From positions 1 through 39,094 of the IMG/VR virus record IMGVR_UViG_3300009790_000028: DNA of 39,094 nt. One strand, written 5' to 3'. Origin of the DNA: a virus. Made by a program: the position numbers and the translations under genes. Positions 7,370 to 27,614 of the stretch are shown here, one piece after another (the first letter of the stretch is position 1; each line of letters begins with the position of its first letter). The notes below the pieces were generated by a model. The model ran no database searches and had not been told where the DNA came from. It worked only from the letters and a program-made list of their open reading frames with translations.

Positions 7370-8185
7370 ATGACTCAATTAATAAACCCCACGAAGTTTA
7401 CAGATACAGTTGGCCTTTTAAGGTCATTTTTTTTGAGCAAAGGATTCTTAGAAGTCCATACTCAGAATAGACTATCAATACTCGCCGCTTGTGAAGATCC
7501 ATTCAATGTAGCGACTTACAATTACGAAGGGCAAGTTTGGCCCTTACCACAAACGGGCCAGATGTGGCTCGAACACGAACTATTAAGTAGCCCCTCTAGT
7601 AAGGGGTTTTTTTGTGTCTCCACTTCCTATAGGCAAGAACCAAATGCTATCCCAGGTAGACATGATACAATATTTCCAATGTTTGAATTTGAAATGCCAG
7701 GAACATTAGATGATCTAAAAGCAATGGAAGTAGAATTATGTAAGCATTTAGGATTTGATGACTTAACAGAAAAGACATATAAAGAATGGCAAGAACACTT
7801 TGGTGTTGATGGAGAGCTAGAAGCAAGACATGAAGAAACTATGTTTGAAAAGTATGGTAGTTGTATGATTACTAACTTTCCAGAGTTTACAAGTCCATTC
7901 TGGAATATGAAACGTTATGAAGATGGCGTTACAAGTAAGAAAATAGATGTAATACTAGGTGGAATGGAAACAATAGGTTCAGCAGAACGTTCAACTGATG
8001 TAGAACAGATGAGAGATACGTTTCATACAATTACTGATGGTGCTTATAGTAAGTTGCTATTCGAATTGTTTGGTAAAGAAAGAGTAGAGGCAGAGCTAGA
8101 GAAGTTCTTAGAGTTTGATTTCTTTCCACGTGTAGGTGGGGGAATTGGAATGACTAGAATGATTAGTGCCTTGGACACCCTATGA
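7370..8185 (+). CDS. Stand-alone class II aminoacyl-tRNA synthetase core, AsnRS-like (or AsnA-like)
   Basis: A 271-residue protein with the complete class II catalytic core. Motif 1-like FLSKGFLEVHTQ is at residues 21-32. LPQTGQMWLEHEL (59-71) corresponds to the AsnRS/AspRS amino-acid site. Motif 2 YRQEPNAIPGRHD (87-99) carries Arg88 and Glu90 and is followed by FPMFEFE. Motif 3 is GGGIGMTR (256-263) with Arg263. SPFWNMKRYEDG and GMETIGSAERS resemble AsnRS. Full AsnRS is about 430-470 residues; the N-terminal OB-fold anticodon-binding domain is absent. It may charge tRNA with Asn, or make asparagine like AsnA. AAAGGAAAAAAG precedes the ATG. A chimeric GUU tRNA follows 62 bases downstream, and a terminator-like hairpin lies inside the gene. 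Confidence 0.82.
   Translation: MTQLINPTKFTDTVGLLRSFFLSKGFLEVHTQNRLSILAACEDPFNVATYNYEGQVWPLPQTGQMWLEHELLSSPSSKGFFCVSTSYRQEPNAIPGRHDTIFPMFEFEMPGTLDDLKAMEVELCKHLGFDDLTEKTYKEWQEHFGVDGELEARHEETMFEKYGSCMITNFPEFTSPFWNMKRYEDGVTSKKIDVILGGMETIGSAERSTDVEQMRDTFHTITDGAYSKLLFELFGKERVEAELEKFLEFDFFPRVGGGIGMTRMISALDTL
7527..7560 (+). promoter_or_regulatory. Two mutually exclusive hairpins inside the synthetase gene
   Basis: AAGGGC (7527-7532) pairs with GCCCTT (7540-7545), or TGGCCC (7538-7543) pairs with GGGCCA (7555-7560). They share bases 7540-7543, so only one can form. They lie just upstream of a terminator-like hairpin, an arrangement like an attenuator switch. They are also coding sequence, so the pairing might be fortuitous. 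Confidence 0.4.
7591..7613 (+). terminator. Terminator-like hairpin inside the synthetase coding region
   Basis: CCCCT (7591-7595) and AGGGG (7602-7606) pair around CTAGTA and are followed directly by seven T. This is an intrinsic-terminator shape about 220 bases into the ORF. The codons are CCC and GGG, both rare in this AT-rich genome. It may attenuate transcription of the synthetase and of the tRNA downstream. Confidence 0.5.
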
Positions 8186-8244
8186 GTAAAGAAGAATATA
8201 AAAAGTACGTTGAGCTATTAAAAAGGATAGCAAACGTAAAATAA
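8182..8244 (+). CDS. 20-residue ORF coupled to the synthetase gene
   Basis: Encodes MSKEEYKKYVELLKRIANVK, a short basic amphipathic helix. Its ATG overlaps the synthetase stop (ATGA) and it ends 3 bases before the tRNA. It could be a real microprotein, a helper that binds the tRNA or synthetase, or merely a translated spacer. No known family. Confidence 0.4.
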   Translation: MSKEEYKKYVELLKRIANVK

Positions 8245-8247
8245 TAA

Positions 8248-8334
8248 TCTAGGGTGGTGGAATTGGTAGACACGATAGACTGTTTATCTATTACTCAAAC
8301 GAGTGTGGAGGTTCGAGTCCTCCCCCTAGAGCCA
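8248..8334 (+). tRNA. Chimeric tRNA: leucine-type body with Asn anticodon GUU and encoded CCA
   Basis: The cloverleaf is clear. Acceptor TCTAGGG (8248-8254) pairs with CCCTAGA (8324-8330). D-arm GTGGAATTGGTAGACAC is nearly identical to bacterial tRNA-Leu. Anticodon stem ATAGA/TCTAT (8275-8279, 8287-8291) closes loop CTGTTTA, anticodon GTT at 8282-8284. The long variable arm (8292-8306) has stem ACTC/GAGT, and the T-arm is GGAGG-TTCGAGT-CCTCC. Discriminator is G73 (8331), as in tRNA-Asn, not A73 as in tRNA-Leu, and CCA is encoded. Position 37 is U, where a purine is normal. The anticodon and G73 are AsnRS identity elements; the body is class II. It sits in the synthetase transcript and must be excised from it. 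Confidence 0.88.
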
Positions 8335-8351
8335 AATAGAAGGACAAATAA

Positions 8352-8744
8352 ATGAAATTATTTCAAGATGGAGATTTTACAAGTCATGCTGGGCTACCTT
8401 TAAAATGGAAGTTAGAGTGTGATGCTATTACAGACGAAGAATGGAGATGTATAGCAAAGATGATTATGGATTATCAAACGGAGCCTTTTTCTAAAGCGGT
8501 AGGAATACCTAGAGGTGGATTAAAATTAGCAGAAGCATTACAACCTTATGCTTCTAATAATTCCAGTGATCAAGTTTTAATTTGTGATGATGTGTTTACT
8601 ACTGGAACAAGTATGGTAGACTTTATTAAAGAACATTATCCTAACTGGACTAGGGCTATGGGACATAGGTGGGTAGTATTTGCTCGTAATAAATCTTATG
8701 TTGATCCTTATTATACAAGAGCTTTGTTTCAAATGCCTGTATAA
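8352..8744 (+). CDS. Phosphoribosyltransferase-like protein
   Basis: A 130-residue protein with the PRPP-binding signature VLICDDVFTTGTS at residues 75-87 (two acidic residues followed by TTGTS) and an upstream SKAVGIPRGGLKLAEAL that forms the family's flexible loop region. This is the type I PRTase fold, found in orotate, adenine and hypoxanthine phosphoribosyltransferases; the base cannot be chosen from sequence alone. GAAGGAC precedes the ATG, 17 bases after the tRNA end. It probably belongs to the synthetase-tRNA transcript and could serve nucleotide salvage. Confidence 0.8.
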   Translation: MKLFQDGDFTSHAGLPLKWKLECDAITDEEWRCIAKMIMDYQTEPFSKAVGIPRGGLKLAEALQPYASNNSSDQVLICDDVFTTGTSMVDFIKEHYPNWTRAMGHRWVVFARNKSYVDPYYTRALFQMPV

Positions 8745-8826: not shown

Positions 8827-9798
8827 TTAAACTTTAGCATATACTTCTTCCCATTTCGTAGCTATAGCTTTAGGTGAGTATGTTCTTTCAATAAACTTTT
8901 GTGCCTTTTCAATCTTTTTAATTACTTCTTCTGGATGATCTATCATCTGTTGATACTTTTTACCTAAGTCACCAATGTATAAAAACTTTTCTAAATCATG
9001 GTAACTTGGTATGCCAGGTGTTGTTAATACTATTCTACCTTGTTGTAAAGCATCAACGGGTCTATTGTTACCTTTACAAGATGAATGCCTATCACTAACA
9101 ACAGGCAATAAAACAAAATCAGCTTCTTCTACTAGCTTACCTTGTTCGTTAAAGTCCCATGGGATTAATGTTTTATGCTCTTTTAAGATTTGCTTATCTA
9201 CAATTTTTCTTTCTTCTACAGTTTTGTTAAAATACCCAGGAATCTTTTTGACAATTTTATATAGCTTAGGCACATCACCTGTTATGTTTGTCATTATTTT
9301 TACATTAGTTTTTCTAACTCTGTTTAAAATTTCTTTAATAACTGTCCATCCTAATTTAGCATGATTGCCATCAGACCCATAGTAAAAAGCATTCATAGTT
9401 TTTTTAACTTTGAACTTTGGTTTTCCTTTAGGTCTTTCTGTAGGATCAGGTATAACAATTGAATCAGTTTTTGTTTCTTGTTTTATTAGATCTTTTAATG
9501 TATAACAAGTTGTAGTAACGGCATCGGCATTTGGTATAGTAAAATACCAATGTTTAAAAGTTTTAAACTTATCGTCGGCAATATCTACAATGTATTTTAT
9601 ATTGTTTGACATACAATACTCAGCATCTTCTTTGGTATGCTTTTTACCCAATACTGCTACATCGTCTGGCTTTAAAGATGTTATATCATCTGTAACCCTA
9701 CTGTCATTTATTTTGCTTGAAGGTATCGTAGCTCTTGCTCTATAAGAATAAGGCGTTGGACGATCACTTTCTAATATAGGTGTGATGAATACGAGCAT
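8827..9798 (-). CDS. Glycosyltransferase (GT4-like)
   Basis: A 323-residue protein. The C-terminal half has the GT-B nucleotide-sugar layout: YYGSDGNHAKLGW, then WDFNEQGKLVEEADFVLLPV, NRPVDALQQGRIVLTTPGIP and a C-terminal helix EKAQKFIERTYSPKAIATKW typical of group 1 glycosyltransferases. It may glucosylate phage DNA, virion proteins or the host surface; the acceptor is unknown. Its ATG lies exactly 5 bases after a late-type TAAATA (9804-9809), so the mRNA could be leaderless, or it is expressed by read-through from upstream genes. Confidence 0.75.
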   Translation of the reverse strand: MLVFITPILESDRPTPYSYRARATIPSSKINDSRVTDDITSLKPDDVAVLGKKHTKEDAEYCMSNNIKYIVDIADDKFKTFKHWYFTIPNADAVTTTCYTLKDLIKQETKTDSIVIPDPTERPKGKPKFKVKKTMNAFYYGSDGNHAKLGWTVIKEILNRVRKTNVKIMTNITGDVPKLYKIVKKIPGYFNKTVEERKIVDKQILKEHKTLIPWDFNEQGKLVEEADFVLLPVVSDRHSSCKGNNRPVDALQQGRIVLTTPGIPSYHDLEKFLYIGDLGKKYQQMIDHPEEVIKKIEKAQKFIERTYSPKAIATKWEEVYAKV

Positions 9799-12376: not shown

Positions 12377-13095
12377 GTTATAGGTTCTCCTTTTTTTATA
12401 TAAGATTCTGTTACATAGCTTTCAATTCCATTTTTATCTACGTACGGATAAAGAGGTAGAGGCACTTCCGCCACCTCTTCTTTATTAACAGGTTGATATT
12501 CAACTTTTACATTATGAAATATATGTGTAATGTCACATTTAGATTCTAGAGTATAAACTCCAAATTTGAAATAAGGTGGTGATGTTATTAGTTTTCTAGT
12601 AGATGCTAGGTATTTGTTGTCAATGTAAAAATCAACATTAATAAAGTCTTTACGATATTTTATCTCTACTCTAAGATTAAATAAGTTTGTTGCTTTAACA
12701 TCTGGTATGTCTCTTGGTTCAATACGAAACTCTTTATGCTCATTAATAACTAGCTTGATATAATTCTCAGGTTCTTCATAGCCATCTTCCCAATGTAATT
12801 GCCACATACAATTACTATTTCCTTCTATTTGATCAGCTTCTATACGAATGTCGCCGGACCAGATATAATCTCCTTCAACAATAGAAGATGACGTGGCTTC
12901 ACATCTTTCTTTAAAATTATACAATAAGTTACCTTCTGGATCATATGCTGGAAGATCGTCACCAGGGCTTTTTCCAGGAACACCTTTTTTAATTTTAAAA
13001 ACAAATTTATTATTTGTATTGTCGTGTTCGTCTCGAGTGTATAGATATTCGCTGTCACAACTGGGCCTCCAAAACTTATCGTTGGATAATATCAT
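12373..13095 (-). CDS. Concanavalin-like (polysaccharide-lyase type) beta-sandwich protein
   Basis: A 240-residue protein. The pattern KERCEATSSSIVEGDYIWSG, then NCMWQLHWEDGYEEPEN, LRVEIKYRKDFINVDFYIDN and YFKFGVYTLESK matches the jelly-roll arrangement of heparin-lyase-like or glucanase-like domains (Gln/His/Trp strand, then a short ligand-side strand and a final lysine/tyrosine strand). It could bind or cut surface glycan, perhaps as a tail-associated protein. It overlaps the radical SAM gene by 4 bases. Catalytic residues cannot be confirmed. Confidence 0.5.
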   Translation of the reverse strand: MILSNDKFWRPSCDSEYLYTRDEHDNTNNKFVFKIKKGVPGKSPGDDLPAYDPEGNLLYNFKERCEATSSSIVEGDYIWSGDIRIEADQIEGNSNCMWQLHWEDGYEEPENYIKLVINEHKEFRIEPRDIPDVKATNLFNLRVEIKYRKDFINVDFYIDNKYLASTRKLITSPPYFKFGVYTLESKCDITHIFHNVKVEYQPVNKEEVAEVPLPLYPYVDKNGIESYVTESYIKKGEPIT

Positions 13096-14390
13096 GTTGT
13101 AAGACCGCCATCTAATGAAATTCTATCTTCTTTTTTGTTTCTAAGTTCTTGTACAATACTTCCACAGTTGTCTACACAAATTTCCATTCTAGGTTTAACA
13201 GGATCATCAGTACGATTGTTCCAACTGTCTTGTAAGTCTGTTTGAAAAAACTTATGTCCTAGTACATCTTCTAATGTGTGATGACTAGTATAGTTCCACT
13301 TGTCATCATATTTAGAAACATAGTTGTTGTGGTATGTATTGTTAGGTGTACCATCTGGGTTAGCTACATCTTTACGCCATGCTCTAGCAAAGTATGATGT
13401 AAAATGACAACAAACGTGTACACGACCATCCCATTCAATTTGTAACTTACCTTCGTTACCCCATGAGCACCAAATGTTACAGTTGTTGGCATAGTCTTCC
13501 ATACTGTTATCAAACTTTTCTACAACAAGTTTTTTAGCTTTCGCCTCCATAGACTTGTAATGATCTTCAGGTGGCTTATGTGATTTGTTTTCAAACTTTT
13601 TCTTTTTAACTTTACTAAAGCCTTCATGATCAAAGTCTGTTTCTTTTTCTTTTACACTTACTACACCTGTTTCAATTGCTTTTTCTCTCAATTGATTACT
13701 AATTCTTTCAGCCCATCTACTACGTCTTACATCAATTCTAACAAAGCCTAATTCTTTTGCTAATCTTTTTGCTTCTTCTATTTGATGTTTGTTATGATCA
13801 AACTCAATAATTTGCCATATAGCTTTACCACCAGCCTCCATAAAGTAACGAGCATTTTCTAATACTTTTTCATATGAACAGCCTCTACGATATAGTTGAT
13901 GTGTTTTATCATCAGTACCATCTAAAGCAAATATTAATTCTGAGTTGTTAGGGTTATATCTTTGACTTGCTAAATGTCCTAGGTCAGTCCAAAATTCTTT
14001 GTTTCTCATAGCACCGTTAGTACTAACCCATAAGTCAGTTCTACTGTTACGACCATTCTTTAATCTCTGTGACTTTACACTATCACTTACGTCAGCAATA
14101 TAATGAAGTATCTCAATCATATCTGGGTGATTAATAGCGTCACCAAATGAACCATTTAAGTCTAATGTTTTAAGTCCACCCATTACTGTAGGAGTAAAGA
14201 TATTCTTAATAGTACTCATAGGCATATTACCAGCACTACCTACTTTAATAGCTGGGTTAGGGTCGCCTTCTTTTAAATCTAAATGTGGTATGTCGCCTGA
14301 AACTCTTCTAAGACATTGTGGACAGAAACTATTACAGTTTGCTGTAATTTCTATTGTAATTCTTCGGAGTAATTTAGGGTCTAAGAACAT
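13092..14390 (-). CDS. Radical SAM protein with SPASM-like C-terminal cysteines
   Basis: A 432-residue radical SAM enzyme. Cys19-X3-Cys23-X2-Cys26 in EITANCNSFCPQCLRR binds the 4Fe-4S cluster for SAM cleavage. DGTDDKTHQLYRRG and the basic VRRSRWAERI are shared with a paralog at 26370-27614. A C-terminal cysteine set (CNIWCSWGNEGKL, RVHVCCHFTSY, ICVDNCGS) suggests an auxiliary cluster as in SPASM proteins that modify peptides. A late-type promoter precedes it, and a lectin-fold gene follows with overlap. The substrate, perhaps a virion protein, is unknown. Confidence 0.85.
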   Translation of the reverse strand: MFLDPKLLRRITIEITANCNSFCPQCLRRVSGDIPHLDLKEGDPNPAIKVGSAGNMPMSTIKNIFTPTVMGGLKTLDLNGSFGDAINHPDMIEILHYIADVSDSVKSQRLKNGRNSRTDLWVSTNGAMRNKEFWTDLGHLASQRYNPNNSELIFALDGTDDKTHQLYRRGCSYEKVLENARYFMEAGGKAIWQIIEFDHNKHQIEEAKRLAKELGFVRIDVRRSRWAERISNQLREKAIETGVVSVKEKETDFDHEGFSKVKKKKFENKSHKPPEDHYKSMEAKAKKLVVEKFDNSMEDYANNCNIWCSWGNEGKLQIEWDGRVHVCCHFTSYFARAWRKDVANPDGTPNNTYHNNYVSKYDDKWNYTSHHTLEDVLGHKFFQTDLQDSWNNRTDDPVKPRMEICVDNCGSIVQELRNKKEDRISLDGGLTT

Positions 14391-26369: not shown

Positions 26370-27614
26370 TTAAAGTTTTTCAACATCATAGCTTGAGATG
26401 TTGTTGTGACCTTCGCCACAATGTTCAACACAAACACTTAACTTCGGTAGGGTTAAATCTGTAGTAGAGTTACCCCAACTTTCTTCTAAGTCGTTCCTGT
26501 AAAACTTATGAGATAATATATCCTGTAACGGATTGTAATTTAGATTATTCCAATTACTGTTATAGGAGTCTGTCATCATCTCATATTCTCCACCATCAAA
26601 ACTACTGTCGATATTCTTACTCCAGAAGTTATTCATATAGTGGTTAAGGAAACAACATGGATGGACGAGTCCGTTAAATTCCACGTTAATCTTTCCTTTG
26701 TTACCCCAAATACAAGATATACTTGTATTCTCTTGGTAATCTTTATAATTCTTGTACTTGCTTTGTACTTCTTTTAGTTCTTTTTCTACTTTACTAGAAT
26801 CAGTAATGTATTTAATGTTTCCTGTTTTGGCATCGTCATATTTGACACGTTTATCTACTGATTTGGATTGGTATAGTTCTACAGTTTTTTCTTCTGCTTT
26901 TACATTTTTACCTAAATCTTTTATAGTATCTTGTATACTTAAACGTTCACCTCTACTACCTCGTAACCAAAATTCAGCAAAGCCTAAATCAGTTGCCATT
27001 TGTTTAGCGTCTAGTGTTTGATGTTTGTTATGATCAAACTGTAACCATTGCCATACAGCTCTACCACCAACACTCATATATGCTTTAGCATTTTCCATTA
27101 GCTTTGGCCAACTAACTGCTCTTCGGTACATTTGGTGTGTCTTATCATCTAATCCATCTATAGCAAATATAACTTTAGTCCAAGGTTGATGGAACTGTTT
27201 AGTTAGCTCTGCCATTTGTTTCCACCAATCAGGATTATGTAAACCTCCATTGGTAGCAATTTCTAATCCACATCTATCATTGCCAGCTTCTTTTAGTGTG
27301 TCAATTAAATGTTGAGTAAACTTAAAAATATCAGGATGTAATATAGCATCACCCCAAGTACCATTGTAGGTAATCATTTGTAAGTTTTTCATTGTTGTAG
27401 GATTGAATAAGTTTTGCCAAGCCTCCCAAGTAAAATGTCCTTTACTTCCTTGGAATGGTTTTATAGTAGGATTTAAATCACCTACCTTTAATGTTTTATC
27501 TTTGTTATCAGTATCACGTACCCAACGGTCACAAGCAGGACACATAGCATTACAATTGGCTGTTAGCTCTACTTGTATTGTTGTTGTACTTTGTAAACTG
27601 TATAACTTACTCAT
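26370..27614 (-). CDS. Radical SAM protein, paralog of the 13092-14390 enzyme
   Basis: A 414-residue radical SAM enzyme. Cys21-X3-Cys25-X2-Cys28 is in VELTANCNAMCPACDRW. The NGTWGDAILHPD, DGLDDKTHQMYRRAV and FDHNKHQTLD blocks match the paralog closely. The C-terminal Cys set (ISCIWGNKGKI, VHPCCFLNHY, VCVEHCGEG) suggests an auxiliary cluster. It is next to ferredoxin, IscA- and DUF59-like genes, consistent with a private Fe-S supply. The ATG overlaps the lysin stop. Substrate unknown, perhaps a phage or host peptide. Confidence 0.87.
   Translation of the reverse strand: MSKLYSLQSTTTIQVELTANCNAMCPACDRWVRDTDNKDKTLKVGDLNPTIKPFQGSKGHFTWEAWQNLFNPTTMKNLQMITYNGTWGDAILHPDIFKFTQHLIDTLKEAGNDRCGLEIATNGGLHNPDWWKQMAELTKQFHQPWTKVIFAIDGLDDKTHQMYRRAVSWPKLMENAKAYMSVGGRAVWQWLQFDHNKHQTLDAKQMATDLGFAEFWLRGSRGERLSIQDTIKDLGKNVKAEEKTVELYQSKSVDKRVKYDDAKTGNIKYITDSSKVEKELKEVQSKYKNYKDYQENTSISCIWGNKGKINVEFNGLVHPCCFLNHYMNNFWSKNIDSSFDGGEYEMMTDSYNSNWNNLNYNPLQDILSHKFYRNDLEESWGNSTTDLTLPKLSVCVEHCGEGHNNISSYDVEKL

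Follow-up and report, generated by a model that had tools for sequence, protein, structure and literature searches.

The analysed window, that is, the whole 39,094-base stretch of an IMG/VR virus record, contained a gene for a synthetase-like core protein of 271 residues, a tRNA gene 62 nt downstream on the same strand, and directly behind the tRNA a gene for a short phosphoribosyltransferase (PRTase). The features of this locus were as follows.

7370..8185, + strand: AsnRS-like class II catalytic core, phrog_29758 (ORF of 271 aa; from Pfam and active-site motifs)
8248..8334, + strand: dedicated RNA of tRNA(Asn) identity (from ARAGORN, Rfam and cassette comparison)
8282-8284, + strand: anticodon G34U35U36 of the window tRNA
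8285, + strand: U37 of the window tRNA
8292-8306, + strand: variable arm of the window tRNA, 15 nt
8331, + strand: G73 of the window tRNA, with an encoded CCA
8352..8744, + strand: short PRTase, probably an orotate PRTase (family shared with bacterial core-pyrF-PRTase-pyrD operons)

The synthetase-like core and its tRNA

The sole Pfam match of the core was tRNA-synt_2, the class II family of D, K and N synthetases (1.4e-15), and the Pfam search found no N-terminal OB-fold anticodon-binding domain in the 271 residues. The protein also matched a phage family of unassigned function, phrog_29758 (4.8e-137). Motif 2 was composed of YRQE (residues 87–90) and FEFE (residues 105–108), and motif 3 of GGGIGMTR (residues 256–263). 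The signature QTGQMWLE (residues 61–68) aligned with QSSQLYLE of AsnRS rather than with QSPQLYKQ of AspRS, and SAER207 was aligned onto the AsnRS arginine in GGSMRI. The AsnRS-type residues Glu68 and Arg207 were invariant across the core family, and presumably correspond to the glutamate and arginine with which AsnRS reads the side chain of asparagine.

An AlphaFold2 model of the core, for which a 37-sequence alignment of the window protein and the locus proteins was used, had a mean pLDDT of 92. The nearest solved structures in a Foldseek search were AsnRS (1x54 and 2xgt), and VIA-align matched the model to AsnRS 8h53 with a Z score of 27.1 over 245 residues. AspRS, the archaeal asparagine synthetase A (3rex, Z 23.9), and EpmA/GenX followed. 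By sequence and by model, the window protein was a class II DKN core with an Asn-type active site, and its AsnRS-type fold and signature were evident at that level. The description in the first-pass annotation, an AsnRS-like core with class II motifs 1–3 and without the anticodon-binding domain, was thereby confirmed.

The curated AsnRS families TIGR00457 (cut-off 342.6 bits) and PRK03932 were not matched by the window protein, and its cellular homologs scored 17–26 bits against AsnRS family cut-offs of 414 and 342.6. For PRK06462, the archaeal AS-AR family, the window protein scored 19.7 bits against a cut-off of 389 and lay under all the NCBIfam cut-offs for it, while the best score among the cellular homologs was 33.6 bits. 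With AsnRS (class IIb, TIGR00457) the core shared the catalytic fold, motifs 2 and 3, and the QxxLE-type Asn signature, but it differed in the missing N-terminal anticodon-binding domain, in an identity of about 20%, and in its pyrimidine gene context. The archaeal asparagine synthetase A, or AS-AR (PRK06462; 3p8t, 3rex), is likewise an AsnRS-derived, single-domain paralog recruited to metabolism, but the core was far under the cut-offs of that family and stood in another gene context, and AS-AR has no known tie to a tRNA. EpmA/GenX, HisZ, and GluQ-RS also have a core-only aaRS fold and a non-translational job, but they act on another class of substrate (β-lysine on EF-P for EpmA) and have no link to pyr genes or a dedicated tRNA. 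The 271-residue protein may best be explained as a member of an AsnRS-derived core family that differs from the AsnRS of translation, which forms part of the reading given as a whole below.

The tRNA gene was called by ARAGORN with the anticodon GUU and scored 51.7 bits with the Rfam tRNA model, and so the GUU tRNA with G73 that had been noticed 62 bases downstream in the same direction proved to be real. Its acceptor stem was UCUAGGG/CCCUAGA with a U1–A72 pair, and its anticodon loop was CUGUUUA, in which U33 was present. The tRNA was indeed unusual, with U37, a variable arm of 15 nt in place of the short class I loop, and a D arm of the tRNA-Leu type; at another locus, L002, an identical D arm was found in that phage's own tRNA-Leu. 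When 29 homologous cassettes were compared, all 20 stem pairs held in each sequence and 15 of the 20 showed compensatory changes, which together indicate that the tRNA fold is maintained.

Gene linkage in viruses and bacteria

At least 595 relatives were found when IMG/VR was searched with the core protein, and among the best 80 of these a tRNA was located within 4 kb downstream in 76, usually 10–130 nt away. In the reverse test, loci were gathered from tRNA DNA patterns alone (n = 79), and the core was found within 400 nt upstream of the tRNA in 77. The remaining two loci were cut by the locus end and carried the core on the whole contig, which gave 79 of 79. The core and the tRNA form a real cassette, paired far beyond chance; the synteny that the first-pass annotation had proposed to look for was conserved, and its alternative of a coincidental tRNA beside an AsnA-like enzyme was ruled out in respect of the coincidence. 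The core family is carried by marine phages, almost always beside its own tRNA.

Cores without the tRNA, which had been named beforehand as evidence against a joint system, did occur. They were found in four of the 80 close loci (L008, L026, L032, and L068), in the huge phages LR756501 and LR756508, and in all cellular homologs apart from phage-like contigs; elsewhere the linkage was strict. An ordinary class I tRNA(Asn) was present elsewhere in the whole records of the 146-kb L026 phage and of the huge phages (735 and 484 kb), and no tRNA was seen in the 72-kb contig of L008. A 20-residue ORF at 8182-8244 of the window (MSKEEYKKYVELLKRIANVK) overlapped the synthetase stop codon, and a similar ORF was located at the same place in the tRNA-less L008.

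The same pair was held by the cyanophages P-SSM2, P-SSM5, and P-SSM7, in which it was annotated as 'tRNA ligase' and tRNA-Asn; the 'tRNA ligase' genes of P-SSM2 and P-SSM7 belonged to the core family. In Sullivan et al. 2010 (PMC3037559), the gene is T4-GC194 'tRNA ligase', and one tRNA is given for the whole of P-SSM2. The core and T4-GC194, as well as the synthetases of huge phages (Al-Shayeb 2020, PMC7162821), are alike in that tRNAs and synthetases are carried by phages. In the parts of these two sources that were consulted, such genes are taken as translation support or given by name alone, and neither a cassette nor a non-decoding tRNA nor a link to pyrimidines is described.

A genome scan with the core gave 125 relatives, 80 of which were kept, and some of the relatives were phage-like contigs binned into MAGs. 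True cellular cores were found in Pasteurella atlantica (complete genome), Aureispira, Midichloriaceae, other Bacteroidota, Myxococcota, Dependentiae, and Patescibacteria. They were 51–61% identical, about 270–324 residues long, and composed of the core alone. No adjacent tRNA was found beside cellular cores, phage-like contigs excepted, and no plasmid homologs of the core were found.

Genes of the pyrD, pyrE, or pyrF type were located within 3 kb of the core in 22 of 71 cellular loci. When 338 windows of the same size were taken from the P. atlantica genome, one had such genes, and that one was the core module itself. The operons of cellular cores held OMP decarboxylase, a short PRTase, dihydroorotate dehydrogenase, and PRPP synthetase. 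The gene order was core-pyrF-PRTase-pyrD-prs in Midichloriaceae, core-pyrF-PRTase with a divergent pyrD in P. atlantica, and core-pyrEF-pyrD in Myxococcota. This pyr neighbourhood was plain from the gene order of the cellular loci, and the link between the core and the pyrimidine pathway is strong. In several Patescibacteria (L242, L255, L259, L262, L282, and others), dnaX for DNA polymerase III γ/τ followed directly after the core, and dnaX was matched by eight of 73 scanned neighbour ORFs. A lyase-family gene was located directly upstream of the cellular core in L246, L284, L308, and L311; that of L246 was argininosuccinate-lyase-like (ASL_C2), from a pathway that is also linked to aspartate.

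In the window, the PRTase behind the tRNA was 39% identical to the Midichloriaceae PRTase (5e-25), and is probably an orotate PRTase. Three phage loci (L079, L071, and L160) had operons of the order pyrD-core-tRNA-PRTase, and in L375 a PRS...pyrF-PRTase arrangement stood beside the core. The core was present in 11 of 48 viral loci found through the PRTase. No PRTase homologs were found in sequenced phage records, most phage contigs had no pyr genes within 4 kb of the core, and phage pyrD also occurred without a core nearby.

The upstream steps of the pathway were compared between 21 core-bearing genomes, many of them MAGs or reduced genomes, and 14 controls that were not lineage-matched. PyrB was over the cut-off in two of the 21 core genomes and in all 14 controls, while PyrF was present in 18 of the 21. 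Within the PyrF-positive genomes, PyrB was found in two of 18 against 14 of 14 controls (Fisher 5e-7, with controls not matched by lineage). PyrC_multi of the TIGR00857 type was over the cut-off in one of 21 core genomes and in 11 of 14 controls; weaker matches were found in eight more, and nine of the 21 had weak pyrC-like matches of about 60–300 bits. The MAGs and reduced genomes in this set might lack PyrB in any case. All 2,301,649 bases of the complete P. atlantica genome were searched with E. coli K-12 queries at a threshold of 1e-3. No match was found there for pyrB, pyrI, pyrC, or pyrE at this threshold; carA and carB gave weak partial matches of 45 and 54 bits at best, and argI was present. 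The pyrD, pyrF, and PRTase genes detected were the copies flanking the core. With carAB, pyrB, and pyrC undetected, the core was the sole gene in the cluster left for dihydroorotate.

Charging identity and decoding features of the cassette tRNAs

The cassette tRNAs were tallied as 129 distinct tRNAs from 325 core-bearing loci. U1–A72 and G73 were invariant in all 129. The anticodon GUU was read directly in 124, was located one base over in four more (read by eye), and was replaced by GUC in one. In bacteria, the anticodon and G73 are the Asn identity elements for charging, and U1–A72 is that for tRNA-dependent amidation (PMC9976931). The cassette tRNAs thus carried the identity elements of an elongator tRNA(Asn), namely GUU, G73, and U1–A72. 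In the cassette tRNA of L497, located 9–10 nt after the core, the loop was CUGUCGA, corresponding to GUC (Asp), and U1–A72 and G73 were kept.

The decoding features followed a different pattern. When the phage loci were parsed more strictly, 133 cassette tRNAs were compared with 73 other tRNAs from the same loci, and a pyrimidine at position 37 was found in 110 of 133 against none of 73. The purine-37 associated with t6A37 and the decoding of ANN codons was accordingly missing from these copies, including that of the window with its U37. U33 was kept in the window copy and in 121 of the 133, and was lost in 12; the lone exception among the other tRNAs was a misread cassette tRNA. On the protein tree this loss required nine changes, at least five of which were forced by starred branches. 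Copies without U33 were missed by ARAGORN, which also miscalled long-arm cassette tRNAs as Glu, Asp, Ile, or unknown type (for example in L002, L012, L016, L029, and L030); inventories of phage tRNAs are misleading in this respect. At 9381-9545 (− strand) of L375, the cassette RNA had a degenerate anticodon stem, and its D loop contained an inserted hairpin; the same contig also carried PRPP synthetase, pyrF, and PRTase.

Across the cassettes, charging identity was retained and decoding features were lost, as read from the aligned tRNAs. Because the Asn identity was kept while the decoding features were relaxed, selection appears to act on charging of the cassette tRNA with Asn by the host and not on its reading by the ribosome. 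A non-decoding role of the phage tRNA is thus probable on this pattern of conservation, although some cassette RNAs might still decode, since U33 was kept in 121 of 133.

These results bear on the orthogonal Asn charging pair that had been suggested in the first-pass annotation, in which a minimal AsnRS would charge only its own tRNA to decode AAY codons in phage proteins and escape host attack on tRNAs. Such a pair would agree with the strict linkage, the AsnRS-type fold, the almost invariant GUU, the U33 kept by most copies, and the identity of the single tRNA of P-SSM2 with the cassette tRNA. Against it, the position-37 pyrimidines and the repeated loss of U33 are unlike a decoding tRNA, and the cellular cores are located in pyr operons of PyrB-less genomes. 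The variable arm, proposed as the identity signal that would substitute for the anticodon domain, was not conserved: it ranged from 5 to 39 nt among homologous cassette tRNAs, with 5–8 nt in some, and was rejected as a general identity element. A translation pair of this kind is therefore improbable.

A proposed entry into pyrimidine synthesis

The gene context and the tRNA pattern are best explained by a core that feeds UMP synthesis, most likely by turning Asn into dihydroorotate; the phage tRNA would be a carrier of Asn that does not serve the ribosome. We give this reading as a whole a probability of about 0.5. Its parts differ in strength. Participation of the core in UMP synthesis is likely; the conversion of Asn to dihydroorotate stands at roughly even odds; and the role of the phage tRNA as an Asn carrier is tentative. 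A non-ribosomal transfer of Asn was among the possibilities named in the first-pass annotation, and was the one that agreed with the present reading.

Dihydroorotate is asparagine plus one carbonyl that bridges the α-amino and side-chain amide nitrogens. Five of the six atoms of the ring are already present in Asn, so that a single-step route from it can be proposed. The core would bind Asn and ATP and yield L-dihydroorotate, the substrate of PyrD. In this step, Asn, HCO3−, and ATP would form an N-carboxy-Asn adenylate, and the side-chain amide would close the ring, so that one reaction would take the place of CarAB, PyrB, and PyrC. The threonylcarbamoyl-AMP of TsaC offers a chemical analogy for the proposed adenylate; we know of no earlier case in which a class II aaRS fold forms dihydroorotate. 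The proposed route and the canonical CarAB-PyrB-PyrC route would share their product and the subsequent PyrD, PyrE, and PyrF steps. They differ in the genes at hand, since PyrB was absent or below the cut-off in 19 of the 21 core genomes, and CarAB, PyrB, and PyrC were undetected in the complete P. atlantica genome. The family would accordingly act in de novo UMP synthesis of PyrB-less bacteria and marine phages.

The phage tRNA would serve as an Asn-tRNA co-substrate or carrier that is separate from the translating tRNA(Asn) pool, and would be charged by the host through AsnRS, or through ND-AspRS and GatCAB. Bacteria may use housekeeping tRNA(Asn), of which P. atlantica has two normal copies, or free Asn. 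The GUU anticodon should not be needed by a core that has no anticodon domain, and dependence on the tRNA could be specific to phages, because the cellular cores function with no tRNA gene next to them. The full scheme, in which Asn on a non-decoding phage tRNA (housekeeping or free in bacteria) would enter pyrimidine synthesis as dihydroorotate and bypass carbamoyl phosphate, PyrB, and PyrC, is more doubtful than any of its parts.

UMP might also be made directly from free Asn, with the phage tRNA as a sensor or regulator whose charging would, for example, report the Asn pool to the enzyme. Cellular cores without a dedicated tRNA and the tRNA-less phage cores are consistent with such a role, but the near-obligate coupling in phages and the strict aminoacylation identity agree equally well or better with a substrate, and no regulatory element was identified; we regard a sensor as rather unlikely. 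Least probable is an AS-AR-like asparagine synthetase that combines Asp with ammonia to give free Asn, with the pyr linkage due to shared aspartate and the tRNA boosting the Asn-tRNA supply: AS-AR is itself AsnRS-derived, lacks the anticodon domain, and is structurally close to the core, aspartate feeds both pathways, and six of the 21 core genomes had neither AsnB over the cut-off nor AsnA, but the PRK06462 score was far too low, the signature was of the AsnRS type (QxxLE), AsnB was present in 15 of 21, and neither the absence of PyrB nor the gene set of P. atlantica would be explained. A general replacement for a missing asparagine synthetase was rejected on the same AsnB count. Replacement of a missing host AsnRS was ruled out, as a true, full-length AsnRS was found in 12 of the 21 core-bearing genomes.

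No phage Asn synthetase–tRNA pair and no Asn-based pyrimidine route was found in the open-licence PMC literature. The core family and its pathway link are therefore undescribed as far as these texts and general knowledge reach. If the proposed conversion of Asn to dihydroorotate is true, one of the oldest pathways of the textbooks has an unrecognised second entry, made from a tRNA synthetase that has taken on a new task. This would help explain how many PyrB-less bacteria (Aureispira, Midichloriaceae, some Bacteroidota and Patescibacteria) make UMP. In phages, a tRNA gene would then serve metabolism instead of decoding, and a 'tRNA-Asn' call in a phage genome need not signify codon supply.

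Elsewhere in the window, the ORFs at 13092-14390 and 26370-27614, both on the − strand, appeared radical-SAM/SPASM-like by eye, with CxxxCPQC and CxxxCPAC motifs near the N-terminus.
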